From positions 1 through 40,183 of the IMG/VR virus record IMGVR_UViG_3300006737_000066: a DNA stretch of 40,183 nucleotides; one strand, given 5' to 3'. Positions 2,170-21,546 of the stretch are shown here, piece after piece (position 1 is the stretch's first letter; each line of letters begins with the position of its first letter). The position numbers and the translations under genes were made by a program. Source of the stretch: a virus. Under the pieces are notes generated by a model. It made no database searches and was not told the DNA's origin. It saw only the letters and a program-made list of their open reading frames with translations.

Positions 2170-3750
2170 ATGAATCAAGGATATTCACCAAAGGACTTAG
2201 AGTTCGGCACAGAGGGGAGAGACAAGCTCATCTCCGGAATCACAAAAATTTCTAAAGCAGTTAAGAGCACTCTCGGTCCGAGAGGTAATACTGTTCTTAT
2301 AGAATCCCCGGAGCATACTCACGGAATAACGGTAACGAAAGATGGAGTTACTGTAGCTAAGTCTATTAGTCTAATGGACCCCATCGAGAACCTTGCGGTT
2401 CGTATGGTAAAGGAAGCTGCTGACAGGACTGCGACATCGGCGGGTGATGGAACAACTACAGCTATAGTATTAACGGAAGCACTTGTTAAAGCAGGTACTA
2501 AGCGTATGAAAGATTCTAACAGGACGGAAGTTTTGCGTATGCTTGTAGAGAAAACGAAAGAGATAGTAAAGGACCTTAAGAAGCAGTCAAAGAAGGTAGA
2601 CTCTAAGACGCTAAAGGATGTGGCTATTATATCAGCGAACAACGATAAAGTTATCGGAGAGATAATCTCTTCTGTATATGAGAAGGTCGGTAAGGACGGT
2701 GTGGTTACTGTAGAAAGGTCACAGTCATCGGAGACATACTTCGAGTCTACCAATGGTATTAAAGTTGACCGTGGGTATATGTCTCCCTTGTTTGTCAATG
2801 ACCAAAAGAGAGACGAGTGTATACTTGATGACACTTATGTATTGGTATCAGATGCAGAGATAAGCAACATACTACAGGTGGAGAAAATATTGAAACCAAT
2901 TATTACAGGAGGCAAAAGACTATTGATTATTGCTCCTTGCTCCACGCAGGTTATAAATACCTTGGCGGCTAACGTAATGAAAAACAACTTGAAGGTGTGT
3001 ACTATACCACCTCCCAACTTCGGTTACAAGCAGCACGAGCTGATGCAGGATATTGCGCTTAGTGTTGGAGCAACTTATTTCTCTGAGAAGACAGGAGACG
3101 ACCTCAGCATAATGGAGTTTGAGGACTTGGGTCACTGTGCTAAGGTTATAGTTAATAGAGACTCTACTGTAATACTTAAGGATAGTGATGACAGTAACAG
3201 CGAGGAGATAAAGAAGAGGGTATCAGAACTTACCGATGCGCTCAGTATAACATCAAAGAAAGCGGATAAGGAATTTATACTTTCGCGAATCGCCTCCCTG
3301 ACGGGAGGGATTGGGGTTATTTACGTTGGCGGTAACACAGACCTTGAGCAGAAAGAATTGTATGACCGAGTAGATGATGCTGTGTGTGCAGTACGCTCAG
3401 CATTGGAAGAGGGAATACTTCCGGGTGGAGGGATTGCTTTATATAAACAAGCATTATCTCAAGATGACACTGTTGCGGGAATGATGTTAGCTGATTGTCT
3501 TAGTGAACCTCTTTGGCAAATTTGGAAAAACGCAAGTTTAAATAACAAAATGTTTTACAAAGTTAACGAGGGTAATTCAACCTATGGCTTAAACGTGAAG
3601 ACAGGAGATTGGGGAGATATGTACAAGATGGGTATCATTGACCCGCTGAAGGTAACCCGTAGTGCGTTACAGAATGCAGTCAGTGTAGCGGTTACTATTT
3701 TATCAACCGACGCTATAGTCACTATGGCAAGAGCATACGAGAAAGAATGA
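2170..3750 (+). CDS. groEL: Phage-encoded chaperonin GroEL (Cpn60)
   Basis: ATP-driven protein-folding chamber subunit. It aligns along its whole length with group I chaperonins: L-G-P-R-G-N-T-V near residues 35-42, T-K-D-G-V-T-V-A-K with the catalytic Asp at D58 (E. coli D52), A-G-D-G-T-T-T with D93 (E. coli D87), and R-V-D-D-A followed by A-L-E-E-G-I-L-P-G-G-G, where D403 corresponds to E. coli D398. The C-terminal equatorial part (G-I-I-D-P-L-K-V-T-R-S-A-L-Q-N) is intact. The apical domain occupies roughly residues 195-380. At 526 residues it is shorter than host GroEL (about 548); the Gly-Gly-Met tail is missing and the segment after G-G-G is shorter. A GroES-like gene follows almost directly, so the phage carries a matched pair, probably to fold its own large virion proteins. 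Catalytic residues are intact, so ATPase activity is expected. Confidence 0.96.
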   Translation: MNQGYSPKDLEFGTEGRDKLISGITKISKAVKSTLGPRGNTVLIESPEHTHGITVTKDGVTVAKSISLMDPIENLAVRMVKEAADRTATSAGDGTTTAIVLTEALVKAGTKRMKDSNRTEVLRMLVEKTKEIVKDLKKQSKKVDSKTLKDVAIISANNDKVIGEIISSVYEKVGKDGVVTVERSQSSETYFESTNGIKVDRGYMSPLFVNDQKRDECILDDTYVLVSDAEISNILQVEKILKPIITGGKRLLIIAPCSTQVINTLAANVMKNNLKVCTIPPPNFGYKQHELMQDIALSVGATYFSEKTGDDLSIMEFEDLGHCAKVIVNRDSTVILKDSDDSNSEEIKKRVSELTDALSITSKKADKEFILSRIASLTGGIGVIYVGGNTDLEQKELYDRVDDAVCAVRSALEEGILPGGGIALYKQALSQDDTVAGMMLADCLSEPLWQIWKNASLNNKMFYKVNEGNSTYGLNVKTGDWGDMYKMGIIDPLKVTRSALQNAVSVAVTILSTDAIVTMARAYEKE

Positions 3751-3905
3751 AAGAGTTAATGTTAATTGCTTTGGCAAAAAGATTCTCCAATGACGCTGAC
3801 TTGGGAAAAGAGATAAGAAAGATTGCAAACAAAATAGAGAAATATTATGAAACCGATAGGCAAGCATATAGTAGTGAGACTGATAGAGGAAGAAGTAAAA
3901 ACTGA
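3747..3905 (+). CDS. 52-aa ORF linking groEL and the groES-like gene
   Basis: An ATG at 3747 overlaps the groEL stop as ATGA and opens 52 codons (M-K-E-L-M-L-I-A-L-A-K-R-F and onward), ending 59 bases inside the groES-like gene. The ATGA junction is the same coupling used at the amidase/holin and terminase/portal junctions. The first 35 residues look like an amphipathic helix; the tail, which overlaps groES in another frame, is low complexity. It could be a real small coupled protein or simply a device that hands ribosomes to groES. No homology is recognised. Confidence 0.4.
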   Translation: MKELMLIALAKRFSNDADLGKEIRKIANKIEKYYETDRQAYSSETDRGRSKN

Positions 3906-4104
3906 TTCAGGACTTTTACTGTCAGCACAAGACGCAAGTGCATTTAGATATCAGATGGCTGATGTTGTAAAGCCGGGTACTGATGTAAGTGTTATTGACG
4001 AAGGTGATAGGATATATTTTGACAAGAGACAGTCTTATACCATAATGATTAATGGAGAGCAGTATACTGTTATTCAGGAGCGCGATGTTGTGGTAGTTCT
4101 GTAA
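3847..4104 (+). CDS. groES: Co-chaperonin GroES-like (Cpn10)
   Basis: Heptameric lid partner of GroEL. The 85 residues start K-P-I-G-K-H-I-V-V-R (compare R-P-L-H-D-R-V-I-V-K in bacterial GroES), then a mobile loop about residues 16-32 with the hydrophobic contact triplet L-L-L at 23-25, then D-E-G-D-R-I-Y-F at 51-58 (the family's V-G-D-x-V-x-F strand) and a C-terminal strand E-R-D-V-V-V-V-L. It is about 10 residues shorter than typical GroES (about 97), mainly where the roof beta-hairpin should be, so the dome opening may be wider, as in other short phage co-chaperonins. It follows groEL, with the 52-aa ORF bridging the gap. Confidence 0.85.
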   Translation: MKPIGKHIVVRLIEEEVKTDSGLLLSAQDASAFRYQMADVVKPGTDVSVIDEGDRIYFDKRQSYTIMINGEQYTVIQERDVVVVL

Positions 4105-4136: not shown

Positions 4137-4433
4137 ATGGCAAAAAGAAACGGAAACGGAAACGGCAAAGAAAACAGAAGCCCAAAAAGAAAAAATAAAT
4201 TAGCACGTAGAGATAGACCTCTACCATCAACATTACCTGCAGACCTTAAGCCTTACGACACAAACAATGATGGTGTACTTTCTCAAGCAGAGAGATTGGC
4301 AATGGCAAGAGCAAAGGCAAAAGAGAGAAGTAAGGAGGACTTAAAGCCGAAAAGAAAAGTACCTATGGATAGAAAAGGACTTATGGATAAAAGGAAAGGC
4401 TTAAATCCAACGGTAAAAACATCTTATCCCTAA
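4137..4433 (+). CDS. Small basic protein with a single EF-hand-type loop
   Basis: 98-aa protein, rich in K/R at both ends (an N-G repeat then K-R-K at residues 5-20; K/R-rich 58-90). The centre contains D-T-N-N-D-G-V-L-S-Q-A-E at residues 41-52, which fits the calcium-binding EF-hand/dockerin loop D-x-[DN]-x-[DN]-G-x-[ILV]-x-x-x-E at every ligand position and is followed by a helix as in EF-hands. The start is the ATG 12 bases after a TATCTTTG box. It is the first member of the basic-protein cluster; whether it binds calcium is an inference. It converges with the next, leftward gene. Confidence 0.75.
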   Translation: MAKRNGNGNGKENRSPKRKNKLARRDRPLPSTLPADLKPYDTNNDGVLSQAERLAMARAKAKERSKEDLKPKRKVPMDRKGLMDKRKGLNPTVKTSYP

Positions 4434-4440
4434 GAGGGAT
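4426..4440. terminator. Hairpin between convergent genes
   Basis: ATCCC-TAAGA-GGGAT, a 5-bp stem overlapping the stop codon of the rightward gene and just before the end of the leftward regulator gene. It could act in both directions, but there is no good T-run, so termination is uncertain. Confidence 0.3.
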
Positions 4441-4447
4441 TACATAA

Positions 4448-4876
4448 CTATTCGTGACGCTGCTGTCTTATAGACGCATTCATCTCTTTAATCATATTCC
4501 TGTATACCTTGTCTGAGTAGGATACATTCTTTTTAAACATAGGATTCTTTGAAGGAGAGGTCGGCATTGCTTCACCCTGTAACTTTTCATATAGAGACGT
4601 AAGCATCCTTTGGGATTTAAATGACAGTTGATATATTGCTTTCTTTTTACCGGCTCTCTTTCTGAACACCTCAATCCATCCATCACGTTTTAGTTTATCG
4701 AATCTGTTAACATTCCAAGATAGTAGTTCATCGAACTCTTTGAATCGGTCCTTTGAAAAAAATCTTTCTGTTCTAAGAAACAGAAGCATATCTAACTCCG
4801 CTTGTGTGATATTGTATTTTGCTTTTATGAAGTATCGTATCACTCTCCAATACTTTAGGTAGTCATCTAAAGCCAT
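4448..4876 (-). CDS. Winged-helix DNA-binding regulator, MarR-like
   Basis: 142-aa protein and the only leftward gene right of position 1100. Helices at about residues 22-38 and 41-50 are followed by L-L-S-W-N-V-N-R-F-D-K-L-K-R-D-G-W-I, the recognition-helix region, then a basic wing (R-K-R-A-G-K-K-K) and a strand (A-I-Y-Q-L-S), the usual order in MarR/PadR-type winged-helix proteins. The C-terminal third is helical and polar. The start is ATG 4876, 24 bases after a leftward TATCTTTG that forms an inverted repeat with the rightward promoter of the basic-protein operon. This arrangement suggests it regulates its own gene and the divergent cluster. Its exact family is unassigned. Confidence 0.75.
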   Translation of the reverse strand: MALDDYLKYWRVIRYFIKAKYNITQAELDMLLFLRTERFFSKDRFKEFDELLSWNVNRFDKLKRDGWIEVFRKRAGKKKAIYQLSFKSQRMLTSLYEKLQGEAMPTSPSKNPMFKKNVSYSDKVYRNMIKEMNASIRQQRHE

Positions 4877-4888
4877 AAATTAAATTCT

Positions 4889-4907
4889 TATCTTTGTATC
4901 AAAGATA
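4889..4907. promoter_or_regulatory. Palindromic divergent promoter pair
   Basis: TATCTTTG-TAT-CAAAGATA is a perfect inverted repeat made of two TAnnTTTG -7 boxes, one per strand: 4889-4896 rightward (ATG at 4913) and 4907-4900 leftward (ATG at 4876). The two start sites would be about 10 bases apart, so the polymerases should exclude each other. Confidence 0.65.
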
Positions 4908-4912
4908 TAAAA

Positions 4913-5128
4913 ATGGCTGACAAAAAAGAAAAGCTAAGCAAGAAAGAATTGGAGACCATTGCGTTCAGGGATTCCGTTACAAGGAGATTAAAGAAGCTTG
5001 ATGAAACTGATTCGGCTACTCGAAAAAAAGAGAGGAAAGCTTTACGAGAAGCAAATCGACAAAGGAGAAGAGCTAAAAGAAGAATTACTCTTCAAGGCTT
5101 AAAAAAGTTTAAAGGATTTAGTAGTTGA
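4913..5128 (+). CDS. Small basic helical protein, 71 aa
   Basis: Starts M-A-D-K-K-E-K-L-S-K-K and is almost entirely charged helix, with the arginine-rich run R-Q-R-R-R-A-K-R-R at about residues 49-57. It looks like a nucleic-acid-binding peptide; no family is recognised. It is the first gene of the rightward basic-protein operon, 17 bases after a TATCTTTG box, and ends one base before the next ATG (stop 5126-5128, ATG 5130), so the pair is very likely co-translated. Confidence 0.7.
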   Translation: MADKKEKLSKKELETIAFRDSVTRRLKKLDETDSATRKKERKALREANRQRRRAKRRITLQGLKKFKGFSS

Positions 5129-5129
5129 T

Positions 5130-5507
5130 ATGGCAAAGAAAGATGCTTGCTATAGAAAGATTATGCGACGATACAAGAAGTGGTCGGCTCGAGCAGCTCA
5201 GGCTACAGCTAAGTGTCGTAAGAAAAAAGGCATTGTTCGCAAAACCAAAGCGGGCAGAAACCTAAAGAGATGGGGTAAGGAGAAATGGATTGATACTCGA
5301 ACAGGTAAATCTTGTGGTACCGGTAAGAGAAGTGAATACTGTAGACCATCAATAAGAGTGTCGTCAAAGACACCCGTTACTAAGTCAGAAATGTCTAAGT
5401 CAACTTTAAGAAAAAAGCAGGCTGAAAAAAAACGAATAGGAAAACAAGGAGCGGGAGGCAAAAAGGTTTCCGCTGTTAGAAGAAATCGCTATGGCAGAAA
5501 AAAGTAG
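5130..5507 (+). CDS. Basic protein with DUF5872-like domain
   Basis: 125 aa. Residues about 45-85 show the pattern L-K-R-W-x-K-E-K-W-I-D-T-R-T-G-K-S-C-G, then Y-C-R-P-S-I-R-V-S-S-K-T-P-V-T, which I recognise as the DUF5872 signature known from phages and algal giant viruses; its function is unknown. The N-terminus (K-K-D-A-C-Y-R-K-I-M-R-R-Y) is another basic helix with cysteines, and the tail is K/R/G-rich. Conserved Cys and Trp residues hint at a metal- or nucleic-acid-binding mini-domain. Palindrome copy 3 (5357-5374) lies inside the domain, encoding V-S-S-K-T-P. The last 17 bases overlap the next gene. Confidence 0.8.
   Translation: MAKKDACYRKIMRRYKKWSARAAQATAKCRKKKGIVRKTKAGRNLKRWGKEKWIDTRTGKSCGTGKRSEYCRPSIRVSSKTPVTKSEMSKSTLRKKQAEKKRIGKQGAGGKKVSAVRRNRYGRKK
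5357..5374. repeat. 18-bp palindrome copy 3, inside a gene
   Basis: AGTGTC-GTCAAA-GACACC within the DUF5872-like gene. The palindrome begins at the third codon position. Confidence 0.85.
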
Positions 5508-5781
5508 AATGAAATGCAATAGGGTTACCGCATCGGATAGACCCGGCAAGAAGAAGATGGTTAAAGCCTGTGAGGGTGGCAAAGAGAAGTTGATTCACTT
5601 TGGTGCTAAGGGTTATGGTCATAACTATTCTGCTGCTGCTCGTAAATCATTCAAGGCACGCCACAAGTGTGGCACTGCAAAGTCTAAACTAACTGCACGG
5701 TATTGGTCGTGTAAGAATTTATGGGCAGGCAAAGGTGGAAGCACGAAGTCATCACCAAAAAATCGTCAAGGAAAATATTAG
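5491..5781 (+). CDS. Small basic Cys-containing protein of a phage/giant-virus family
   Basis: 96 aa with a strongly patterned sequence: M-K-C-N-R-V near the start, R-P-G-K-K-K-M-V-K-A-C, then H-F-G-A-K-G-Y-G-H-N-Y-S, R-K-S-F-K-A-R-H-K-C, and A-R-Y-W-S-C-K-N-L-W. The H-F-G, R-K-S-F-x-A-R-H-x-C and R-Y-W-x-C blocks recur in small proteins of marine phages and algal giant viruses; I believe a Pfam DUF covers them but am not certain of its number. Paired Cys/His suggest zinc binding. It overlaps the preceding gene by 17 bases, so it is translationally coupled in the same operon. Confidence 0.8.
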   Translation: MAEKSRMKCNRVTASDRPGKKKMVKACEGGKEKLIHFGAKGYGHNYSAAARKSFKARHKCGTAKSKLTARYWSCKNLWAGKGGSTKSSPKNRQGKY

Positions 5782-5789
5782 TATATTTG
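5782..5789 (+). promoter_or_regulatory. TAnnTTTG promoter for the tagged basic proteins
   Basis: TATATTTG directly after the stop of the preceding gene and 16 bases before the ATG at 5806. It could restart transcription for the tagged-protein run. Confidence 0.55.
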
Positions 5790-5805
5790 TAAAAAGAATT
5801 TAACA

Positions 5806-6267
5806 ATGGCATATAAAAGAGATTTAGCAAACCCCTTAGCGGTATCTATAAACCCGGGAGATAAGCCTAAGAAAAAAAAGGCAAAAAGAAAAGTTTCAAA
5901 TAACTATAGAGGTAAAGGCGATATAAAACGCCTAAAGAAAGTTACCCGAAAAGATGGAACAACCGTAACAAAATATAAAGGAACGGGGAAAGCAAAAGTA
6001 AAATCAAGAGAGGTTCGAAATGACGAGGGCACGCTTTTAAAGTATAAAAGGAAAACTAAGACGAAAAAACCTTATAGAGAAACTACTACCAAGGTAAAGT
6101 ACAACCCTATGAAGAAAAGCGGAGCTGTTGTAACTAAGAAATCAAAACAACTTACAGGTCCATACAAAGGGAAAAAATCTAAAAGCAAGTTTGAGAGCAC
6201 TATTCCTTTTGGAGCAAAACAGTCAGTTAGAAAAGATATAGCTCGAAATCGCAAGAAAAAATCTTAA
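5806..6267 (+). CDS. Tagged basic protein 1 (RDLANPLA)
   Basis: 153 aa and among the most lysine-rich proteins here. The N-terminus is M-A-Y-K-R-D-L-A-N-P-L-A-V-S, the first of five copies of the shared tag. The tag is followed by a poly-basic patch (K-P-K-K-K-K-A-K-R-K) and then strand-like repeats of the type K-D-G-T-T-V-T-K-Y and N-D-E-G-T-L-L-K-Y-K-R-K, which recur in the other tagged proteins. There is no enzymatic motif. A role in binding or condensing DNA, or as an internal virion protein delivered by the tag, is an inference from composition and from the conserved tag on variable bodies. Confidence 0.8.
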   Translation: MAYKRDLANPLAVSINPGDKPKKKKAKRKVSNNYRGKGDIKRLKKVTRKDGTTVTKYKGTGKAKVKSREVRNDEGTLLKYKRKTKTKKPYRETTTKVKYNPMKKSGAVVTKKSKQLTGPYKGKKSKSKFESTIPFGAKQSVRKDIARNRKKKS

Positions 6268-6280
6268 TAAACAATAAATT

Positions 6281-6499
6281 ATGAAACAAGGATACAACGC
6301 AAGACTCGATGAGTCATTAGGAATGAAGCACAAGGGTGCTCACAAACAGTCTATGAAATCTCGTAGAAACGAGTCTAAGGCAATGTCTAAGAAAGACTAC
6401 GGTCACGCTTACGGTGGAGACCACTCAATGTCTTACGAGCACAAGTGCATCAAGGACGGAAAAGTTAAGGAGCACTTAACCAAGTTAATTCGTAAGTAA
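6281..6499 (+). CDS. Small conserved phage protein, 72 aa
   Basis: Starts M-K-Q-G-Y-N-A-R-L-D-E-S-L-G-M-K-H and is rich in H, K, S and G, with Y-G-H-A-Y-G-G-D-H and Y-E-H-K-C in the C-terminal half. It resembles small proteins I associate with marine flavophages and related viruses, function unknown. Its TAA overlaps the ATG of the next gene (TAATG at 6497-6501). Although in the same operon, it lacks the shared tag. Confidence 0.75.
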   Translation: MKQGYNARLDESLGMKHKGAHKQSMKSRRNESKAMSKKDYGHAYGGDHSMSYEHKCIKDGKVKEHLTKLIRK

Positions 6500-6696
6500 T
6501 GGCTACGAAGGGCAGGACAAAGTTCCCTGAAATAAAAAAGTCTCGTCAAGGGGCTTTTACTAAGTGGGCTAAGTCTAATGGCTTTAAGGATGCCTGTAGT
6601 GCAGCTTCTTCTGTTATGAAAAATACTGATAAGTATTCTGATAAGGTAGTGAAGATGGCGAACTACGCTAATAACTTTGGGTGTAAAACAAAATAA
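6499..6696 (+). CDS. Small conserved phage protein, 65 aa
   Basis: The sequence has the distinctive blocks K-K-S-R-Q-G-A-F-T-K-W-A-K, A-C-S-A-A-S-S-V-M and K-V-V-K-M-A-N-Y-A-N-N-F-G-C. I recognise the same pattern in other phage-encoded small proteins, but no function is established. Predicted fold is compact and helical, with two cysteines. TAATG overlap with the gene before it and only two bases before the next ATG, so it is part of a tight co-translated series. Confidence 0.75.
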   Translation: MATKGRTKFPEIKKSRQGAFTKWAKSNGFKDACSAASSVMKNTDKYSDKVVKMANYANNFGCKTK

Positions 6697-6698
6697 CT

Positions 6699-6806
6699 AT
6701 GGGAAAGGCTTTAGTATGGTTAGGAAATAAAATCATCGCATTTGGATTGTGGTGTAAGAGAACTTGGAATAAGTTTATTAGTAAACTAATGTTCAAAAAC
6801 GTATAA
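6699..6806 (+). CDS. 35-aa cationic amphipathic microprotein
   Basis: Short frame starting M-G-K-A-L-V-W-L-G-N-K-I-I-A-F-G and ending K-L-M-F-K-N-V. Hydrophobic residues (L, I, V, W, F) alternate with Lys/Arg at helical spacing, giving an amphipathic cationic helix that could lie on a membrane. The case for translation is the packing: it begins two bases after one stop and ends three bases before the next ATG, filling a gap of about 110 bases in a gene-dense operon. It differs from its neighbours in being hydrophobic. Membrane disruption, host takeover or virion-associated roles are all possible; none is shown. Confidence 0.6.
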   Translation: MGKALVWLGNKIIAFGLWCKRTWNKFISKLMFKNV

Positions 6807-6809
6807 CCA

Positions 6810-7124
6810 ATGGCACGAAAAAGAGATTTATCAAGCCCATTAGCTGCATCTGAGTTCGATGATAACAAGCCTGAAATCAGAAGAGATACTACCGGGCGGG
6901 GAAAGAAACGGTCTGTTAAAGTAACAGGACGAGGAGAGGACAAGGTAAAAGAGGTATACAAAAAAGGTAAGCTTGTAAGAAGAAAAAAGGGAACAGTTAT
7001 ATCTAATGTTCAAAAGGAACGAAAGAGAATACAAGAAAGAAGATTAGAGTCTCTCGAAGCTAAAGATAAAGCCATTCAAAAAAGAAAGACAATTCAAAAA
7101 AGAAAGAAAAACGAAAAAGTATAA
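6810..7124 (+). CDS. Tagged basic protein 2 (RDLSSPLAASEFD)
   Basis: 104 aa. The N-terminus M-A-R-K-R-D-L-S-S-P-L-A-A-S-E-F-D is nearly identical to that of tagged protein 5 (8018) at the protein level, although half of those codons differ synonymously. The body has a basic patch (G-R-G-K-K-R-S), a K-K-G-K-L-V-R-R-K-K-G-T strand repeat and a long charged helix with the repeat Q-K-R-K-T-I/K-Q-K-R-K at the end. Short spacing on both sides places it in the same operon. Function unknown; DNA-binding or internal virion protein is the working guess. Confidence 0.78.
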   Translation: MARKRDLSSPLAASEFDDNKPEIRRDTTGRGKKRSVKVTGRGEDKVKEVYKKGKLVRRKKGTVISNVQKERKRIQERRLESLEAKDKAIQKRKTIQKRKKNEKV

Positions 7125-7127
7125 CCA

Positions 7128-7448
7128 ATGGCGATGAGAAATTTATCAACACCTCTTGCGTCGACTTTTGGCGATGAAAAGAAGGCTACTACAAAAAAGA
7201 ATAAGGCAGGTACGACTCAGATAGACCCCAAGACAAGAAAGACAAGTCTCACGGGAAAGGACTATACTAATCAAGATTATTCAAGTAGTAATGAAGCTTT
7301 AAAAAGAGGCAAGTCTGCTGCAAAGAGATATGGTAAACAAACCACGGTTTGTAACTTCAATAAATCAAAAACTAAAAAAAGCTGTACTACTTACAATAAA
7401 AACGGTAAGGTTATAAGCAGAAAAATAGTTGACGTAAAAAAAGGATAA
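7128..7448 (+). CDS. Tagged basic protein 3 (RNLSTPLA)
   Basis: 106 aa. The tag is M-A-M-R-N-L-S-T-P-L-A-S-T-F-G-D, then a K/T-rich segment. The C-terminal half contains two cysteines (V-C-N-F-N-K-S-K and K-S-C-T-T-Y-N-K-N-G-K-V-I), where the Y-N-K-N-G-K-V-I-S-R-K strand resembles the D-G-T/N-G-K repeats in its paralogues. Its TAA overlaps the ATG of the next gene (TAATG at 7446-7450). Function not recognised. Confidence 0.75.
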   Translation: MAMRNLSTPLASTFGDEKKATTKKNKAGTTQIDPKTRKTSLTGKDYTNQDYSSSNEALKRGKSAAKRYGKQTTVCNFNKSKTKKSCTTYNKNGKVISRKIVDVKKG

Positions 7449-8005
7449 TGGCATTTAAAAGAAATTTAGCTTTCCCATTAGCACCTACAGTTGGGGATGA
7501 CAAGAAGAAAAAGAAAAAGAAAAAGAAAACCGTTAAAAATCCTGACGGAACTATAACTACATACCGTACTCGAAGAAGTGGTGATATAGTTAAAAAAACT
7601 ACAACGCCAAGTACAAAAAGTACAACGCCCCCTTCTAAACCTGAGCCTAAAAGAACAAGAGCAGAGAAGAAAAAAGATAAAGCTCAGTCAGAAGCCATTA
7701 ACAAAAAGTTTGGCTTTGGTAAGTATGAAGACCCTGAAAAGAGAAAAGCTCGTAAAGAGTCTATGAAGGCATACGACAAGCAAAATAGAAAAAGAAGAAG
7801 AACAGCAAGAAAAACAGAAAGGGAAGTAATCAAAGCTGAAAAGTCTAATGCAAGGTATATTAAAAAAGTAAAAAAAGGAAAGTCCCCTAAGGTAAAACTA
7901 AAAGGAAAAAGGGGAGCATATAAAGGCAAAGGTGGAAGTGAAGTGAAATTCTGTAAGCCGGGTGCTTCAGGAAAAAGAAAAGCGTGTAAACATAATGTTG
8001 GATAA
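7448..8005 (+). CDS. Tagged basic protein 4 (RNLAFPLA) with poly-Lys tract
   Basis: 185 aa. The tag M-A-F-K-R-N-L-A-F-P-L-A-P-T-V-G-D-D is followed immediately by nine consecutive lysines (about residues 19-27). Then come a N-P-D-G-T-I-T-T-Y strand repeat, a P/S/T linker, a long K/R/E helix with K-A-R-K-E-S and R-K-R-R-R-T-A-R-K, and a glycine/lysine tail with two Cys (F-C-K-P-G-A-S-G-K-R-K-A-C-K). Composition resembles histone-tail-like or protamine-like proteins. It starts in a TAATG overlap. Binding to the phage genome or to host nucleic acid is inferred from charge only. Confidence 0.78.
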   Translation: MAFKRNLAFPLAPTVGDDKKKKKKKKKTVKNPDGTITTYRTRRSGDIVKKTTTPSTKSTTPPSKPEPKRTRAEKKKDKAQSEAINKKFGFGKYEDPEKRKARKESMKAYDKQNRKRRRTARKTEREVIKAEKSNARYIKKVKKGKSPKVKLKGKRGAYKGKGGSEVKFCKPGASGKRKACKHNVG

Positions 8006-8017
8006 ATAAAAAAAGAA

Positions 8018-8668
8018 ATGGCAACAAGAAAAAGAAATCTGTCAAGTCCATTGGCAGCCTCGGAGTTTGATATCGTAGTAACTCCTATGAAGAAAAAGAA
8101 AAAGAAAAGAAGTGTTCAAGTAACCGATGATAAAAAAACAGGAAGTAGAACACTTACCGTTAAGAAGCGTAGTGGTGCTAAAAGAGCTGTTACTATTAGT
8201 AAGGATGGTACAAAAACAACAAGAACTAAGACCAACCGAAAAGGAGAACAGGTAAGAAAGAAAACTACACAACTTAATCTAAGTAAAAAACCGGGGAAGA
8301 GCACTGCAACTACTACTTTAGAGAAAAAAGGCAAGCCAACAAAAACTCGTACTGCTAAAGAGATGACAGCAAGGCAGGCATATATGGTTGCCACGCAAGC
8401 TGATGATTTCAAAGCAGATGCACAGAAAAATGTTAAAAAGAAAAAGAGACTTTACCGCAGAGACGACGATGTAAAAGCGCAGCGTAAACAAAATAATAAA
8501 GACTACAGGGAGAGAAAAAGACAAGCTAACAAGAAATATAAACCCGCGAAGAAAAAGAAAAACAAAAAATTAAAAAGTTTTAAACAAATACGCATAGATA
8601 TTAAAGAGGCTTGCAAAGGGAAGCGTAAAGGCACTAAGAAATGTGCTTCAGCGAGAAAAAGATTTTAA
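8018..8668 (+). CDS. Tagged basic protein 5 (RNLSSPLAASEFD)
   Basis: 216 aa, the largest of the tagged set. The tag M-A-T-R-K-R-N-L-S-S-P-L-A-A-S-E-F-D is followed by K-K-K-K-K-K-R-S, several strand repeats (T-I-S-K-D-G-T-K-T-T-R-T-K and N-R-K-G-E-Q-V-R-K-K-T), a short less basic helix (A-R-Q-A-Y-M-V-A-T-Q-A-D-D-F) and a strongly basic tail ending A-C-K-G-K-R-K-G-T-K-K-C-A-S-A-R-K-R-F. Tag and body arrangement matches the other four, indicating duplication from one ancestor followed by divergence of the bodies. Confidence 0.78.
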   Translation: MATRKRNLSSPLAASEFDIVVTPMKKKKKKRSVQVTDDKKTGSRTLTVKKRSGAKRAVTISKDGTKTTRTKTNRKGEQVRKKTTQLNLSKKPGKSTATTTLEKKGKPTKTRTAKEMTARQAYMVATQADDFKADAQKNVKKKKRLYRRDDDVKAQRKQNNKDYRERKRQANKKYKPAKKKKNKKLKSFKQIRIDIKEACKGKRKGTKKCASARKRF

Positions 8669-8670
8669 TA

Positions 8671-8859
8671 ATGGCTTACAAACAAAAACCAACATTCAAT
8701 CAACCGAGCAGAGGTCTTGGTGATAGTATTGAGAAGTTCACTAAAGCTACCGGTATCAAGTCGGTAGTCAATAAAGTTTCCAATGCTATAGGAAAAGATT
8801 GCGGCTGTGGAGAAAGAAGAGATTCTTTAAATCGAGTATTCCCATATAAAAAAAAATAA
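8671..8859 (+). CDS. Small conserved phage protein with C-G-C-G motif, 62 aa
   Basis: I choose ATG 8671 (M-A-Y-K-Q-K-P-T-F-N) instead of the ATG at 8641, which lies inside the previous gene and would add ten residues unlike the neighbours' Met-Ala starts. The C-terminus K-D-C-G-C-G-E-R-R-D-S-L-N-R-V-F-P-Y-K-K-K matches a motif (D-C-G-C-x-x-R-x-x-x-L-N-x-x-F-P-Y) I recognise from many Bacteroidetes phages, function unknown; the close cysteines suggest metal binding. It is the last gene of the basic-protein cluster, with a new promoter downstream. Confidence 0.8.
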   Translation: MAYKQKPTFNQPSRGLGDSIEKFTKATGIKSVVNKVSNAIGKDCGCGERRDSLNRVFPYKKK

Positions 8860-13958: not shown

Positions 13959-14227
13959 CACATCAAGAATTAAAACAAAATATAATTACTGCAGGTAGGA
14001 GAGCTGTAGAGCAATTAATCAAAGTTGCTAAAGAAGAGATTATCAAACCCGACCCTGAAGACGAATTAGCAGCAGACAGATTAAAGAATGCTGCCGCTAC
14101 AAAAAAATTAGCCATCTTCGATGCTTTTGAAATTTTAAATAGAATCGAGACTGAAGAAGAAAAGCTCAACGAAGAGCCGGCGGAAAATAAAACAAAGCAA
14201 GGGTTTGCCGAACGAAGGTCAAAATAG
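13955..14227 (+). CDS. Small helical protein before TerL, small-terminase candidate
   Basis: 90 aa, all helical and highly charged, with the block D-P-E-D-E-L-A-A-D-R-L-K-N-A-A-A-T-K-K-L-A-I-F-D-A-F-E-I-L conserved in phages of this type directly before the large terminase. Overlaps the previous gene by ATGA (13955-13958) and overlaps the TerL start by 23 bases. Position and size fit a small terminase subunit, but no helix-turn-helix is evident, so this is an inference. Confidence 0.6.
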   Translation: MTHQELKQNIITAGRRAVEQLIKVAKEEIIKPDPEDELAADRLKNAAATKKLAIFDAFEILNRIETEEEKLNEEPAENKTKQGFAERRSK

Positions 14228-16451
14228 TTTATACAAGGTATTAAAAGATTACATACCTAAATCCGTACTTACCAATAAAAATAAAAATAAAAGTTGGGAG
14301 TATGGATATGACGAGAAGTATGACCTTGTAGTAATATCTAAAACAGGACAGATAGGAGATGTTGTAGATATTCAAGGTTTGCAAGTAGGGCTACCCAAAG
14401 CTCCTAAAGAGTGTCGTCAAAGACACTTAAAAAAAACAGAACAGTATTGGGAGAGGGAAGATATACCTAAACAGCTTTCAAGAATTAAATCTATATTCCA
14501 ATGGAATGAGATGACATCAACCTTCAAGGACAAGTGGGTGGATTATATTGAGTCAGAATTCGACAGGAGGGAATATGGCTATTGGTTTATGAATAATGGT
14601 GTGCCCACTTATATTACAGGAGCTCACTATATGTATCTTCAATGGACGAGTATAGATGTTGGATACCCTGATTTTAGAGAAGCAAACAGAATTTTGTTTC
14701 TCTATTGGGAGGCTTGTAAAGCAGACAAAAGAAGCTTTGGTATGACATACCTGAAGATTAGGCGTTCAGGATTTTCTTTTATGAGTTCATCAGAATGCGT
14801 TAACATTGCTACTTTGGCTCGCGACTCTCGAATAGGAATATTATCAAAGACGGGTAGTGATGCTAAGAAGATGTTTACAGATAAGGTTGTTCCTATATCA
14901 CAAAGGCTTCCGTTCTTTTTCAAACCCATACAGGACGGTATGGACAAGCCAAAGACTGAATTAGCATTTAGAATACCCGCGTCTAAGATTACAAAAAAGA
15001 ATATGCACGAGGTTGCTAATAATGATATGGATGGTCTCGACACCACAATAGATTGGAAGAACACAGATGACAACTCCTATGACGGTGAGAAACTCCTAAT
15101 GTTAGCGCACGATGAAAGTGGCAAGTGGTTAAAACCAAATAATATACAAAATAATTGGCGTGTTACTAAAACCTGTTTAAGGTTAGGTAGTAAAATTATT
15201 GGCAAGTGTATGATGGGCTCAACCGTTAACTCAAAAAGCAAAGGAGGGGGAGCGTTCAAATCTTTATATGAAGACTCTAATCTCAATACTCGAAATGCTA
15301 ACGGTCAAACCAAAAGCGGATTGTACAGTCTGTTTGTTCCAATGGAATGGAATATGGAGGGGTTTATTGATGTGTATGGAATGCCCGTATTTAGAAAACC
15401 TCCTATCCCCGTGTTAGGTGTTGATGGTGAGATGATTAAAAACGGGGCTATTGATTATTGGGAGGCGGAAGTGGACTCTCTAAAAAATGACCCTGATGCT
15501 TTGAATGAGTTTTACAGACAGTTTCCTCGAACAGAGTCTCACGCATTTAGAGATGAAAGTAATCAGTCTTTGTTTAACCTTACCAAGATATACCAACAGA
15601 TTGATTATAATGATGCGATGATAAAAGAGCACTATATTACTCGAGGTTCTTTTCATTGGAAGAACGGAGTTAAAGATACTGAGGTTGTATGGAGTCCGGA
15701 CAAGCGAGGTAGATTTAATGTCTCTTGGACACCAAAGAAGGGGATGAATAACAAGGTTGAAACTCGCGGCGGTATAAAGTATCCGGGCAATGAACACATA
15801 GGGGCGTTCGGATGTGACTCTTATGATATATCCGGAACGGTTGGAGGAGGAGGTTCTAACGGAGCTCTTCACGGTCTTACTAAGTTTAGTATGGATGAAG
15901 CACCAAGTAATGAGTTTTTTTTGGAGTACGTGGCTCGACCTCAAACTGCAGAGATATTTTTTGAAGAAGTATTAATGGCTTGTGTGTTTTATGGAATGCC
16001 CATACTTATAGAGAACAATAAGCCGAGGCTTTTATATCATTTTAAAAACAGAGGGTATAGAGGGTTCTGTATGAATAGACCCGACAAACAGTATACCAAG
16101 CTTTCAAAAGCGGAGAGAGAACTTGGGGGTATACCTAACACAAGCGAAGATGTCAAACAGGCTCACGCAGCAGCAATAGAGTCTTATATTGAAAAGCATA
16201 TAGGTATGGATACGGAAGGCACTTTTAGGGATAGCGACGTTATGGGTACTATGCCTTTTGAACGAACCCTTGAAGATTGGGCGCGATTCGATATATCTAA
16301 TAGAACAAAATTTGATGCGTCTATAAGCTCAGGTCTTGCCATAATGGCGTGTCAAAAACATTTATATACCCCGCAGAAAAAAGAGTCAAAAATAAAGATT
16401 AACTTTGCAAGGTATACTAACAAAGGAACATTAAGTGAAATAATCAGATGA
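14205..16451 (+). CDS. terL: Terminase large subunit (packaging ATPase and nuclease)
   Basis: Motor that drives DNA into the procapsid and cuts it. TTG at 14205 is chosen: the next upstream in-frame stop is at 14136 with only a CTG between, and no in-frame ATG occurs until well into the protein. It overlaps the upstream gene by 23 bases. Landmarks: a Walker-A-like R-R-S-G-F-S-F at 186-192, Walker B L-L-M-L-A-H-D-E with D303/E304, the nuclease Asp in A-F-G-C-D-S at D538, an L-I-E-N-N element and the C-terminal F-D-A-S acidic residue. At 748 residues it is at the long end, as in crAss-like phages. Palindrome copy 4 lies at codons about 69-75. Overlaps the portal gene as ATGA. Confidence 0.92.
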   Translation: MPNEGQNSLYKVLKDYIPKSVLTNKNKNKSWEYGYDEKYDLVVISKTGQIGDVVDIQGLQVGLPKAPKECRQRHLKKTEQYWEREDIPKQLSRIKSIFQWNEMTSTFKDKWVDYIESEFDRREYGYWFMNNGVPTYITGAHYMYLQWTSIDVGYPDFREANRILFLYWEACKADKRSFGMTYLKIRRSGFSFMSSSECVNIATLARDSRIGILSKTGSDAKKMFTDKVVPISQRLPFFFKPIQDGMDKPKTELAFRIPASKITKKNMHEVANNDMDGLDTTIDWKNTDDNSYDGEKLLMLAHDESGKWLKPNNIQNNWRVTKTCLRLGSKIIGKCMMGSTVNSKSKGGGAFKSLYEDSNLNTRNANGQTKSGLYSLFVPMEWNMEGFIDVYGMPVFRKPPIPVLGVDGEMIKNGAIDYWEAEVDSLKNDPDALNEFYRQFPRTESHAFRDESNQSLFNLTKIYQQIDYNDAMIKEHYITRGSFHWKNGVKDTEVVWSPDKRGRFNVSWTPKKGMNNKVETRGGIKYPGNEHIGAFGCDSYDISGTVGGGGSNGALHGLTKFSMDEAPSNEFFLEYVARPQTAEIFFEEVLMACVFYGMPILIENNKPRLLYHFKNRGYRGFCMNRPDKQYTKLSKAERELGGIPNTSEDVKQAHAAAIESYIEKHIGMDTEGTFRDSDVMGTMPFERTLEDWARFDISNRTKFDASISSGLAIMACQKHLYTPQKKESKIKINFARYTNKGTLSEIIR
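14410..14427. repeat. 18-bp palindrome copy 4, inside terL
   Basis: AGTGTC-GTCAAA-GACACT, identical to copy 3 except the last base, in the N-terminal part of the terminase gene. It begins at the second codon position and encodes C-R-Q-R-H, so the reading phase differs from copy 3. Confidence 0.85.
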
Positions 16452-18892
16452 GAGACGTAAAAATAAACATTTCATCTGCGGGTTTCCCAAGTCAATTCGT
16501 GTCAGATGCTGAGAAAGCAACTGACGAATTTGGATTACAGATTGGTCAAGCTATTCAATACGAGTGGTTTAAAAAGGATGGGAACCAATGCAGGTACTAT
16601 AGCCAATGGAGAGACTTCCATAAACTTAGATTATACGCCCGCGGAGAGCAGTCCGTTGCAAAATATAAAAACGAACTTGCTGTTGATGGTGACCTTTCAT
16701 ACTTAAATCTTGATTGGACACCTGTTCCCGTAATACCTAAGTTTGTGGACATAGTAGTTAACGGAATGGCAGATAGACTGTTTCAAGTTAAAGCTTATGC
16801 ACAGGATGCTTTGTCTCAACAAAACAGAAACAAGTATCAGGATATGGTTCAGGGGCAAATGGTAGCTAAAGATACTTTAGAGATTATTCAAGAAAAAACA
16901 GGCGCGAATCCATTTATAATGGAACCTGAAGAACTTCCAACAACAGATGAGGAGTTGTCATTGTATATGCAACTAAATTATAAACCTGCTATTGAAATAG
17001 CAGAGGAAGAAGCTATTAATACTATATTTGAGGAAAACCATTATGTAGACTTAAGAAAGAGATATGACTACGACTTAATGACTCTTGGCATATCTGTCGC
17101 TAAACACGAGTTCCTTGATGGTTCAGGCGTAAAGGTTTCTTATGTTGACCCTGCTAATGTAGTATACAGTTATACAGAGGACCCACATTTTAAAGATTGT
17201 TTTTATTGGGGAGAGATTAAAACCCTACCAATAACAGAGCTTTTAAAAATAGACCCAACGCTTACTAATGATGATTTAGAAGAGATTAGCAAATACAGTC
17301 AGAGTTGGTACAACTATTATAACGTAGCACAATATTACGAGAATGATATTTTTTATAGGGATACAGTTACAGTAATGTACTTTAACTACAAGACCACAAA
17401 GAAGATGGTCTATAAGAAAAAGATTCTTGAGACCGGTGGTTCTAAAGTCGTAGCTAAAGACGATACGTTCAATCCACCTCAAGAAATGATGGAGGAAGGA
17501 AGATTTGAAAAGTTCGAGAAGACTATTGATGTTTGGTACGATGGCGTTATGGTTATGGGAACAAACATTATACTTAAGTGGGAGCTTGCTCATAATATGG
17601 TAAGACCAAAATCTGCAAGTCAGCACGCTTTACCAAACTATGTTGCAGTAGCACCACGAATGTATAAAGGAGTGATTGAGTCATTAGTTAGAAGGATGAT
17701 TCCTTTTGCTGATTTAATTCAAATAACCCACCTTAAGTTACAGCAAGTTATATCACGGGTAGTACCTGATGGTGTGTATATAGATGCAGATGGATTAAAC
17801 GAAGTAGACTTAGGCACAGGTCAAGCCTATAATCCGGAGGATGCTTTACGTCTTTATTTTCAAACCGGTAGTGTTGTAGGTAGAAGCTACACTCAGGATG
17901 GAGATTACAACCAAGGTAAGGTTCCTATTAAGGAGCTTCAGTCTTCTTCCGGTGGTTCTAAGACTCAGATGCTGATAGCTAATTACAATCACTACTTGAA
18001 TATGATTAGGACTGTAACAGGACTAAACGAAGCGAGAGACGCTTCAACCCCTGACCCTAACTCTTTGGTAGGTATTCAGAAGCTTGCAGCTTTAAATTCA
18101 AATACAGCAACTCGACATATACTCGACGCAAGTCTTTATGTTTATAGAAGTTTAGCCGAAGCGTTAACATATAGAGTGGCTGATATTTTAGAGTATTCTG
18201 ATTTTAAAGATGACTTTGTAAACAAGATTGGAAAGTACAATGTAAGTATACTTAACGATATATCTGACCTTTACATTTATGACTTTGGAGTATTTATAGA
18301 TGTCGCACCTGACGAAGAGCAAAAGGCTTTGCTTGAACAAAACATTCAGATGGCATTACAGAAGCAAGACATTAATCTTGAGGACGCTATTGATATTAGA
18401 GAGGTTAAGAATATTAAGTTAGCAACTCAACTTTTAAAAGTAAAACGTAAACAAAAGCAAGACAGGGACAAAAAGGCTGAACAAGAGAAACAAGCATTCC
18501 AAGCTCAGTTAAATATGCAGTCTCAACAGCAGGCAGCACAGAATGCAATGCAGAAACAGCAGGCTGAGTTAAATGCTAAAATGCAACTTAAGCAAGCTGA
18601 GATAGCATTCGAGCTTGAGAAACTTAAAGGAGAAGCTGAACTTAAGAGTCAACTTATGGCTGAAGAATTTGATTACAATATGAAACTTCGAGATATTTCT
18701 GAGAACTCTCTAAAGAGCAGAGAAACTCAGAGAGAGCAGGCTAAGTCTGCACGAATCAGTAAACAAAACACACAGCAGTCTAAGTTAATTGACCAACGGA
18801 AAAACAATCTACCCCCTCAAAACTTTGAGACGTTTGAATCAAACGAGGATAGTTTAGATGGATTTGATTTAGCAGAATTTTCGCCAAGATAA
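16448..18892 (+). CDS. Portal protein
   Basis: 814 aa, twelve-fold vertex ring through which DNA passes. Assignment rests on position directly after terL (ATGA overlap), size, and portal-like features: an N-terminal region with W-T-P-V-P-V-I-P-K-F-V-D-I-V-V-N-G-M, a central beta/alpha core with V-D-P-A-N-V-V-Y-S-Y, long helices including Y-N-H-Y-L-N-M-I-R-T-V-T-G-L-N-E-A-R-D (a region common to portals of this group), and a long Q/K/E-rich coiled coil at about 655-765. The C-terminal glutamine-rich segment is low complexity. The crAss-like portal family is the best match I can name. Confidence 0.88.
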   Translation: MRDVKINISSAGFPSQFVSDAEKATDEFGLQIGQAIQYEWFKKDGNQCRYYSQWRDFHKLRLYARGEQSVAKYKNELAVDGDLSYLNLDWTPVPVIPKFVDIVVNGMADRLFQVKAYAQDALSQQNRNKYQDMVQGQMVAKDTLEIIQEKTGANPFIMEPEELPTTDEELSLYMQLNYKPAIEIAEEEAINTIFEENHYVDLRKRYDYDLMTLGISVAKHEFLDGSGVKVSYVDPANVVYSYTEDPHFKDCFYWGEIKTLPITELLKIDPTLTNDDLEEISKYSQSWYNYYNVAQYYENDIFYRDTVTVMYFNYKTTKKMVYKKKILETGGSKVVAKDDTFNPPQEMMEEGRFEKFEKTIDVWYDGVMVMGTNIILKWELAHNMVRPKSASQHALPNYVAVAPRMYKGVIESLVRRMIPFADLIQITHLKLQQVISRVVPDGVYIDADGLNEVDLGTGQAYNPEDALRLYFQTGSVVGRSYTQDGDYNQGKVPIKELQSSSGGSKTQMLIANYNHYLNMIRTVTGLNEARDASTPDPNSLVGIQKLAALNSNTATRHILDASLYVYRSLAEALTYRVADILEYSDFKDDFVNKIGKYNVSILNDISDLYIYDFGVFIDVAPDEEQKALLEQNIQMALQKQDINLEDAIDIREVKNIKLATQLLKVKRKQKQDRDKKAEQEKQAFQAQLNMQSQQQAAQNAMQKQQAELNAKMQLKQAEIAFELEKLKGEAELKSQLMAEEFDYNMKLRDISENSLKSRETQREQAKSARISKQNTQQSKLIDQRKNNLPPQNFETFESNEDSLDGFDLAEFSPR

Positions 18893-18920
18893 CTAAATAA
18901 AAACAACAAAAATTTATTAC

Positions 18921-18928
18921 TAACTTTG
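18921..18928 (+). promoter_or_regulatory. TAnnTTTG promoter for scaffold and capsid
   Basis: TAACTTTG lies 15 bases before the ATG at 18944. It starts the high-demand scaffold and capsid unit, which ends at the terminator after the capsid gene. Confidence 0.65.
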
Positions 18929-18943
18929 TACAAATTAAATTAA

Positions 18944-20080
18944 ATGGAAATTAAAGTAAGAGAAGTTGGTGGTTCTGAAGAGAAATCACGGGCTCAAGTT
19001 GAGCAAGAATTATTAGACAAGGCTGAGAAAGATAATTTTGGAGAGGAAAATAGCAACACCGAGGAAGCGGAAATAAACACTGAGAGTGAACCCGCCACGG
19101 AAGAGCAAGAGACTCTACAGCCGCAAGAAGAAATACAAGCTCAATCCTCAGAGCTAAACGAGGAAGACGTTCTTTCATATATTAAGAATAGGTACGATAA
19201 GCAGATAGACTCTGTGGGTCAGTTGTTTGAGGAAAGAGAATCAAACGAAGAACTACCCGAAGATGTTGCTGCTTATTTTGAGTACAAAAAAAATACAGGT
19301 CGTGGAATCTCAGACTATGCTAAACTACAGCAAGACTTTGATTCTATGGACGAAGATACTTTGCTAAAAAATTATCTGTTAACAACTGAAGAAGGATTAG
19401 ATTCTGAGGATGTAGATGTATTAATGTCAGACTATAAGTATGATGAAGACATTGATGACGAATCGGATATTAAGAAGATTAAAATAGCAAAGAAAAAAGC
19501 GATTGGAAAAGCCAAGAGATTTTTTAATGAGCAGAAAGAGAAGTATCACAAGCCCCTTGAGTCAAGTACGGCTAAGCTCTCTGAAAGTGATTCTAAAAAA
19601 CTTGAGGAATATGCCCAATATATGCAGAAGGCGACAAGCTTTGAAGAGGAGCAAAAGCGGAGACGCGATTGGTTCGTGGAAAAGACAAACGAGGTGTTCT
19701 CAGATTTCAAAGGTTTTGATTTCAAAGTAGGAGAAGACATTGTTTTAAATTACAAACCCACAAATGCTGAGGAATTAAAAAATACAAACTTAGACACAAA
19801 CAACTTTATGAAGAAGTTTGTGGATGACAATGGATTGATTAAGGACGCAGCAGGATTTCATAAGGCTTTAGCTATTGCAGCGAACGCCGACAGATATGCC
19901 CGGTTCTTTTATGAGCAAGGTTTATCAGCGGGAACTGAGGATGTGACGAAGAAGATGAAAAACATAAAGATGTCTGAGCGTCAAGCACCGGAGGCGACTT
20001 CTAAAGGAGGCGTTCAAATAAGGTCTCTAAGCCCTGACAGTGGTCGAGGTTTAAAGATAAAGAAAATAAAAAAAGTATAA
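18944..20080 (+). CDS. Putative scaffolding protein
   Basis: 378 aa between portal and major capsid genes, the usual scaffold position. The N-terminal 75 residues are extremely acidic (E-E-N-S-N-T-E-E-A-E and onward), the middle is helical and charged, and the C-terminus is a basic tail (G-L-K-I-K-K-I-K-K-V). An acidic head with a basic helical tail that contacts the capsid shell is typical of phage scaffolds. No protease motif was seen, so a separate prohead protease is not evident in this window. Confidence 0.7.
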   Translation: MEIKVREVGGSEEKSRAQVEQELLDKAEKDNFGEENSNTEEAEINTESEPATEEQETLQPQEEIQAQSSELNEEDVLSYIKNRYDKQIDSVGQLFEERESNEELPEDVAAYFEYKKNTGRGISDYAKLQQDFDSMDEDTLLKNYLLTTEEGLDSEDVDVLMSDYKYDEDIDDESDIKKIKIAKKKAIGKAKRFFNEQKEKYHKPLESSTAKLSESDSKKLEEYAQYMQKATSFEEEQKRRRDWFVEKTNEVFSDFKGFDFKVGEDIVLNYKPTNAEELKNTNLDTNNFMKKFVDDNGLIKDAAGFHKALAIAANADRYARFFYEQGLSAGTEDVTKKMKNIKMSERQAPEATSKGGVQIRSLSPDSGRGLKIKKIKKV

Positions 20081-20103
20081 ACAAATTTTAAAAATTAGAA
20101 ATT

Positions 20104-21546
20104 ATGGCAGTAGATGCTACTCCCGGTTTTGATTTGCAGCCGTCGGCACAACAAGTACCAACGTCAACAAATTATATAACAAATTTTGATTTCTTGAATC
20201 AGTATCTTCCTGATACTTACGAGAAAGAATTCGAGCGATATGGGAATCGCACAATTAGTTCCTTCCTACGATTGGTTGGAGCAGAAATGCCTTCTAACTC
20301 TGACTTAGTAAAATGGGCAGAGCAAGGAAGACTTCACACGAAGTATACATCAGTAGGTTCAGCAGCAGCAGCGGCTGCTACTACGGCAATTTTACAGGTT
20401 AATGACGCAGGTGTTCCTGCTTTTACAGCAACTAATGGAATTGCTATTCGTGAAGGACAAACAGTTATGATTGTAGATAACGGCGGAGGCGGAAGTAACA
20501 AGGCTCTTGTTACAAATGTTGACCTTGCTAACGACAGGTTCACTGTTGCTTTTTACGAGAATACAGGTCTTGCAGTAGCAGGTACAGGTTTGGGTAATGA
20601 TGACTATACTGTATTTATCTATGGTTCTGAATTCAAGAAAGGAACAGACGGTATGGAAGGTTCTTTAGAAGCTGATGACATCTTCTTTGAGAACTCTCCA
20701 ATTATTTTAAAAGATAAATACTCGGTATCAGGTTCTGATATGGCGCAGATTGGATGGGTTGAGGTAACAACTGAGAACGGTGCTACAGGATACCTATGGT
20801 ACTTGAAGTCTGAGCACGAAACTCGTTTACGTTTCGACGACTATCTTGAAACCTCAATGATTGAAGCAGTTCCCGCTGAAGCGGCTGCAGGTCTTAACCC
20901 TGATTCAGGTGCTACGGCTGCAGGATACAAAGGTTCTGAAGGTATCTTCTATTCAGTTCAAACTCGTGGTAACGTATGGTCAGGTGGTAACCCTGTTGCT
21001 CTTGCTGACTTTGATGCAGTTATCTCAAGATTGGATAAGCAAGGAGCTATCGAGGAGAATGTCATTTTCCTTGACAGAGACTTTGGATTTGATGTTGACG
21101 ATATGTTAGCAGCTCAGAACTCTTACGGAGCAGGTGGTACATCTTATGGATTGTTTGACAATGACGAAGAGATGGCACTTAATCTTGGATTCACAGGATT
21201 CCGTAGAGGTTATGACTTCTACAAGTCTGATTGGAAATACCTAAACGACCCAACAATGCGAGGCGGTTTGCCTGCAGGTGCAGGTTCAGGACAGGTAAAT
21301 GGATTAATGGTTCCTGCAGGTTCTACATCTGTATATGACCAAATCCTTGGAAAGAACGCTAAGCGTCCATTCCTTCACGTTCGTTACCGAGCTTCAGAAA
21401 CTGAAGACCGTCGATACAAAACGTGGATTACAGGTTCAGCCGGTGGTGCGGCTACATCTTCTTTAGATGCAATGGAAGTTCACTTCCTTTCTGAAAGATG
21501 TGTATGTACTATGGGTGCAAACAACTTCTTCATTTTTGAGGACTAA
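20104..21546 (+). CDS. Major capsid protein
   Basis: 480 aa, HK97-fold type by context and composition. Landmarks are an N-terminal arm, E-K-E-F-E-R-Y-G-N-R-T-I-S-S-F-L-R-L-V-G-A-E-M-P near residues 40-60, beta-rich peripheral segments, and the C-terminal F-L-S-E-R-C-V-C-T-M-G-A-N-N-F-F-I-F-E-D. It follows the scaffold gene and is followed by the strongest terminator in the window, consistent with very high expression. Codon choice and Gly/Ala/Val richness also fit. A second insertion-type domain is suggested by the D-N-G-G-G-G-S region near residues 120-175. Confidence 0.88.
   Translation: MAVDATPGFDLQPSAQQVPTSTNYITNFDFLNQYLPDTYEKEFERYGNRTISSFLRLVGAEMPSNSDLVKWAEQGRLHTKYTSVGSAAAAAATTAILQVNDAGVPAFTATNGIAIREGQTVMIVDNGGGGSNKALVTNVDLANDRFTVAFYENTGLAVAGTGLGNDDYTVFIYGSEFKKGTDGMEGSLEADDIFFENSPIILKDKYSVSGSDMAQIGWVEVTTENGATGYLWYLKSEHETRLRFDDYLETSMIEAVPAEAAAGLNPDSGATAAGYKGSEGIFYSVQTRGNVWSGGNPVALADFDAVISRLDKQGAIEENVIFLDRDFGFDVDDMLAAQNSYGAGGTSYGLFDNDEEMALNLGFTGFRRGYDFYKSDWKYLNDPTMRGGLPAGAGSGQVNGLMVPAGSTSVYDQILGKNAKRPFLHVRYRASETEDRRYKTWITGSAGGAATSSLDAMEVHFLSERCVCTMGANNFFIFED

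Follow-up and report, generated by a model that had tools for sequence, protein, structure and literature searches.

A short conserved N-terminal peptide shared by small basic proteins of aquatic Bacteroidota phages is a candidate capsid-loading signal

Very few phages, T4 and P1 among them, have a demonstrated packaging signal for proteins inside the head. In T4, a short N-terminal capsid-targeting sequence (CTS) is carried by IPI, IPII, IPIII and Alt; the first 10 residues of IPIII suffice as the signal, the internal proteins (IPs) co-purify with the scaffold protein gp22, and the diverse IPs have only the CTS in common (PMC9026906, PMC3012670). In P1, the N-terminal 9–30 residues of DarB send the protein into the head and also work on a reporter, and the P1 Dar proteins have no common N-terminal consensus detectable by BLAST (PMC9024508). 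Here, we describe a short peptide, which we designate the tag, at the start of five small basic proteins encoded in a 40,183-nucleotide stretch of viral DNA (IMG/VR record IMGVR_UViG_3300006737_000066, positions 1 to 40,183; hereafter the window) and of many further proteins in related phages. A more distant counterpart is found in encapsulins, cellular compartments in which a short, mostly C-terminal peptide docks cargo within an HK97-fold shell; to our knowledge these cargo peptides have no sequence match to the tag, and the likeness is one of analogy.

Comparison between the tag and the T4 CTS revealed that (i) both are short N-terminal peptides on divergent small basic proteins, which have 47–216 residues in the present case; (ii) the peptide itself, the podovirus-like lineage and the Bacteroidota hosts differ from those of T4; (iii) the tag has two dialects, an occasional C-terminal copy and far more types of body, that is, of the protein outside the tag; and (iv) packaging is demonstrated for T4, whereas packaging by the present tag is putative and no protease or cleavage is known for it. 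Homology to the T4 head module (gp20–gp24) was not found, the window having a terminase of PHROG 6681 and a portal of PHROG 6547 and P22_portal. Family scans covering part of the proteins, head proteins among them, gave no prohead protease match, although several of the head proteins matched no family of any kind. By sequence and head module, the tag falls outside the T4 family, and the parallel would be one of logic only. DarB differs in size (250 kDa), and the present proteins, unlike the Dar proteins, share a consensus. The Bacteroidota phage crAss001 stores proteins in head and tail; by contrast, this cargo is large (60–277 kDa) and a small shared tag is not mentioned in the passages covered (PMC10172136).

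The five window proteins, encoded by genes starting at 5806, 6810, 7128, 7448 and 8018, begin with MAYKRDLANPLAVS, MARKRDLSSPLAAS, MAMRNLSTPLAST, MAFKRNLAFPLAPT and MATRKRNLSSPLAAS, respectively, and have the consensus R-[DN]-L-x-x-P-L-A-x-[ST] at the protein start. Their open reading frames (ORFs), starts and shared motif are as described in an earlier note on this DNA, and the motif, which stands at the start of 5 of the 98 window ORFs, arose 0 times in 2000 shuffles. Alignments of the first 20 residues among the five genes gave z = 4.2–15.4 against shuffles, and body-to-body alignments gave z from -1.2 to 1.4, with the exception of 7448 and 8018 (z = 4.2); the likeness is thus limited to the first ~15–18 residues. 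The designation of the five genes as paralogues in the earlier note is therefore doubtful, given that the bodies outside the tag lack significant similarity. Its codon count for 6810 and 8018 proved exact: 14 codons contain one residue change (D/N) and seven synonymous changes. Summed over all ten gene pairs, 32 codon differences in the ten-codon core are synonymous; the 36 non-synonymous ones fall at the x positions and at [DN], [AS] and [ST]. Because the codons vary synonymously while the peptide is kept, selection acts at the peptide level. A degenerate tag in the EF-hand-like 4137 gene, which would bring the tagged genes to six, did not reach significance (z = 2.2), and a second tag of PTFN type in neighbouring genes was dropped with three cases only.

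In an AlphaFold (AF2) model of the 8018 protein, which was built from a single sequence and is to be taken with care, residues 1–21 are largely disordered, residues 32–116 form a confident seven-strand meander and residues 118–198 a long helix. The model thus places the tag outside the folded body. A Foldseek search with this model against viral structures gave no match below an expectation value (E) of 0.02, PDB sequence searches with the 5491, capsid candidate and 8018 proteins gave no useful match, and profile scans against Pfam and PHROGs gave none below E 0.01 for the tagged proteins scanned. The AlphaFold model of the capsid candidate had a mean predicted local distance difference test score of 35 and was not used.

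Scans of IMG/VR with degenerate DNA patterns, some of them without a start codon, showed that other contigs, too, encode many small basic proteins with an N-terminal tag (fetched loci bear L-numbers, e.g. L030; a K/R filter was used in collecting the final set), and N-terminal positions were returned even where the pattern contained no start codon. The tag of the window (tag 1) is present in 49 distinct proteins, and a second dialect (tag 2, R-[PR]-D-T-P-L-A-x-T-P-D), found via a variant in L065, in 22 more. These proteins have an isoelectric point (pI) of 9.2–11.9 and about 37 body types, which is an upper bound because bodies were clustered by BLASTP with SEG, from which distant homology of low-complexity bodies may escape. 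Clearly different bodies include those with a short hydrophobic segment, an EF-hand-like loop or a Cys-rich C-terminus and those of a YTWDR family. The search of phage databases for the tag on non-homologous N-termini, which the earlier note had proposed, thus returned many such bodies in related phages. In one tagged family (L099:5830 and L139:2454), the short hydrophobic segment (GLASIGMLIFGNKIG) stands ahead of the basic tail and is possibly membrane-active.

The shared peptide has 10–14 residues and lies 2 to 26 codons from the start codon, most tags beginning at most ten residues after the first Met. Three tag-1 proteins have C-terminal copies (near the C-terminus in L108; a second copy in L111 and L115, which may reflect gene fusion), and every other tag is at or near the N-terminus. 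Full conservation at some motif positions is partly circular, since the patterns fix them; residues flanking the motif, and tags on co-resident genes that no scan picked up, are independent of the pattern. A pattern of the same type had 18 DNA matches in 257 Gb of cellular genomes, 4 of them in frame and none N-terminal on a basic protein, which together with the shuffles excludes a chance origin of the tag. Tag-2 pattern matches in L167, L168, L172, L193, L195 and L198 were judged to be chance.

The tag is modular. In orthologous families, it is better conserved than the body, and in the largest (family A) identity is 0.96 in the tag versus 0.67 in the body, with 150 synonymous versus 18 non-synonymous differences in the tag codons. 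In family B, L030 matches L028 and its relatives over the first ~38 residues and then has a different body. A further body family bears tag 1 in L185 and tag 2 in L173, L178, L183 and L189 (E 6e-9 to 6e-8); its members have 172–178 residues and end in C-x-x-C (CKTC, CKSC, CRNC or CHSC) after a conserved GSREIT segment. The gene of this both-dialect family changes place among genomes: L173 has it in the basic block, L185 in the lysis region, L189 and L197 between portal and scaffold, and L183 after the portal, at the contig end. Untagged relatives of 46 tag-1 bodies were not found among the fetched loci, fragments excepted. Tagged genes occupy the block from GroES to the counterpart of the window 8671 gene, the lysis region or the portal–scaffold gap, a neighbourhood of late virion genes.

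Where the records are long enough to judge, the tag carriers all belong to one GroEL-encoding, podovirus-like clade of aquatic Bacteroidota phages. The same terminase (71–82% identity) is encoded in 26 of the 32 tag-1 IMG/VR records; the six records without it may be fragments, and two reference phages bring the terminase matches to 28. Isolates carrying the tag were not found in the phage collection. The window terminase has ~79% identity to that of the uncultured podovirus MW202828 and ~47% to those of Flavobacterium elemo phages and is also related to those of Cellulophaga phages, these relatives being podoviral flavophages. On the terminase tree, tag type is clustered, with 5 changes compared with 11.3 in shuffles (0 of 200 shuffles as low). 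The dialect thus follows the phage lineage, which fits a phage-encoded partner.

A link to the virion is provided by Cellulophaga phage phi40:1 (Callevirus, Pervagoviridae), whose portal, capsid, scaffold and amidase are homologous to those of the window. Its gp069 and gp080 are small, K/R-rich and annotated as "structural protein, experimental MS/MS [tandem mass spectrometry] proteomics", and the phi38:1 copies have K/R fractions of 0.28 and 0.31. The gp080 gene lies between homologues of the window 4448 gene and the window amidase, which is the interval of the tagged block. Unlike the window proteins, gp069 and gp080 have no tag, and they have no sequence similarity to the tagged bodies. The MS/MS result therefore supports the presence of basic proteins from this interval in virions, not their packaging by the tag.

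The short peptide, the exchangeable basic bodies, the late head-proximal genes and the lineage-linked dialect argue for a loading signal read by a head component. On balance, we consider it somewhat probable that the tag serves to load swappable basic internal proteins into the capsid, like the T4 CTS but unrelated to it, and we regard the chances that it works as a CTS does as roughly equal either way. A short linear signal of this kind would load small and very basic proteins, in a set that varies, into the assembling head by docking on a phage-encoded head-assembly component, which might be the acidic scaffold, the capsid interior or the portal. The scaffold and capsid candidates are both acidic (net charge -25 and -28), and the acidic scaffold is the leading candidate for the receptor. 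The basic bodies would then lie alongside the packaged DNA and may pass with it into the next host. Of the capsid-targeting logic put forward in the earlier note, the conserved short peptide and the interchangeable basic bodies are borne out by the data, and the genes stand in a late virion neighbourhood, while tag-directed packaging, DNA condensing and injection are steps that we infer. Several points weigh against capsid loading: the clustering of dialects by lineage would also follow from simple inheritance; neither dialect is seen in some members of the clade whose block is complete (L008, L013, L050, L059 and L082); and the untagged phi40:1 virion proteins indicate that basic proteins of the block can reach virions without a tag. 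A wider proposal, in which one peptide in two dialects is a clade-wide packaging code that loads a fast-exchanged small basic arsenal for delivery with the DNA and arose independently of T4, is tentative and, in our judgement, rather doubtful.

Other explanations were weighed on the same observations. The tag could be a localisation or partner-binding peptide inside the infected cell, gathering basic proteins that bind DNA or RNA at a hub, for instance the replication complex, a host protein or the phage GroEL. A short, disordered and conserved peptide on varied bodies would suit any hub, the block lies immediately after GroEL/GroES in almost all relatives, and the basic proteins recorded from phi40:1 virions are untagged ones, which also counts against capsid loading; the position of the block among late virion genes, the tagged genes between portal and scaffold (L189 and L197) or beside the portal (L183), and the basic proteins of the matching interval in phi40:1 virions nevertheless make such a role unlikely. 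We are more sceptical still that the basic bodies alone bring the proteins into the virion, through DNA or the acidic scaffold, with the tag preventing aggregation, binding a chaperone or triggering release or cleavage. The untagged basic proteins of phi40:1 virions agree with this route, as does the absence of the tag from 7 of the 12 basic genes of the window, a count that likewise tells against a loading role for the tag, but entry through the bodies would leave unexplained why one exact peptide is retained on so many of them and why the tag is tied to lineage rather than body type.

Plain paralogy, in which one family has fast-diverging bodies and the N-terminus is merely the slowest part without any signal role, would account for the crude common architecture of several window bodies, in which basic β-hairpin repeats (x-DGT-x) are followed by long basic helices, and for the z of 4.2 between the 7448 and 8018 bodies. 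It is improbable in view of the clearly different bodies, whose sequences already suggest unrelated folds, the body switch between L028 and L030 after a near-identical start and the C-terminal copies; moreover, strong retention of the peptide requires a function regardless. An element acting as nucleic acid at the gene start, be it a translation enhancer, a recombination site or an RNA structure, would place the motif near the start codon, where it nearly always is. Synonymous positions vary freely, however, the 40 bases upstream of the tagged genes are not alike, the distance from the start is variable, and the C-terminal copies speak against a translation-start effect, so that this explanation is contradicted and we give it hardly any credence.

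In the window (Table 1), the basic block (4137–8859) extends from GroES to the first acidic virion-type gene and includes 12 small genes with a pI of at least 9.9 throughout and a summed net charge of ~ +315; 5 of the 12 have the tag. GroEL/GroES are directly upstream of the block, an order kept in most relatives. The start codon of the 7448 gene overlaps the stop of the preceding gene. The small 8671–8859 gene (GLGD...CGC...LNRxFPY) is present in nearly all block-bearing relatives, and a family match above threshold was not found for it. The CEGGKE domain of the 5491 gene also occurs inside PHROG 220 ("minor head protein and DNA pilot") and in Roseobacter, Pelagibacter and Aeromonas phages. 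The pair of genes at 5130–5507 and 5491–5781 has a DUF5872 match (E 2e-12) as well as one that is DUF5754-like but weak (E 5e-4, under the curated cut-off). Both DUFs are also listed for an algal virus, Chrysochromulina parva virus BQ1 (PMC12085832), and small basic protein families may therefore be common to eukaryotic DNA viruses and the present phages. At the other end of the window, one ORF of more than 2405 residues (32967–40181) continues past the window end at the position of the giant last structural genes in elemo and phi38:1 phages; its match to GNAT acetyltransferases is weak (E 0.0036), and by eye it contains an HEMGH zinc-protease-like motif.

Table 1. Coordinates of the tagged genes, their neighbours and the head module in the window.
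Feature	Position	Strand	Remark
GroEL and GroES, phage-encoded	2170..4104	+	left edge of basic block in relatives
Untagged basic genes of the block (4137-4433, weak EF-hand-like loop; 4913-5128)	4137..5128	+	
Conserved gene, winged-helix-like by eye; homologue of phi38:1 gp078; synteny anchor	4448..4876	-	
DUF5872-family basic protein of the block, untagged	5130..5507	+	PF19197, E 2e-12
CEGGKE-domain basic protein of the block, untagged	5491..5781	+	E 8e-16
Tagged basic protein 1, 153 aa, pI 10.8, net +43; tag MAYKRDLANPLAVSINPGD at 5806-5862	5806..6267	+	
Two conserved untagged basic genes of the block (6281-6499, 6499-6696)	6281..6696	+	
Tagged basic protein 2, 104 aa, net +22; tag MARKRDLSSPLAASEFDD at 6810-6863	6810..7124	+	
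Tagged basic protein 3, 106 aa, net +19; tag MAMRNLSTPLASTFGD at 7128-7175	7128..7448	+	
Tagged basic protein 4, 185 aa, net +48; tag MAFKRNLAFPLAPTVGDD at 7448-7501	7448..8005	+	
Tagged basic protein 5, 216 aa, net +58; tag MATRKRNLSSPLAASEFD at 8018-8071, predicted disordered	8018..8668	+	
Conserved GLGD...CGC...FPY gene, usually last of block	8671..8859	+	
Head module: terminase, portal, acidic scaffold candidate (18944-20080, net -25), major capsid candidate	14205..21546	+	

If the tag is indeed a loading signal, it would provide a sequence handle for predicting virion cargo in a large uncultured group of aquatic Bacteroidota phages and, under the wider packaging-code proposal, could locate injected effectors in uncultured Bacteroidota phages from sequence alone. 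It would also be a candidate tool for loading proteins into such heads and would represent convergent evolution with T4, and dozens of unannotated tiny basic genes become a testable class.

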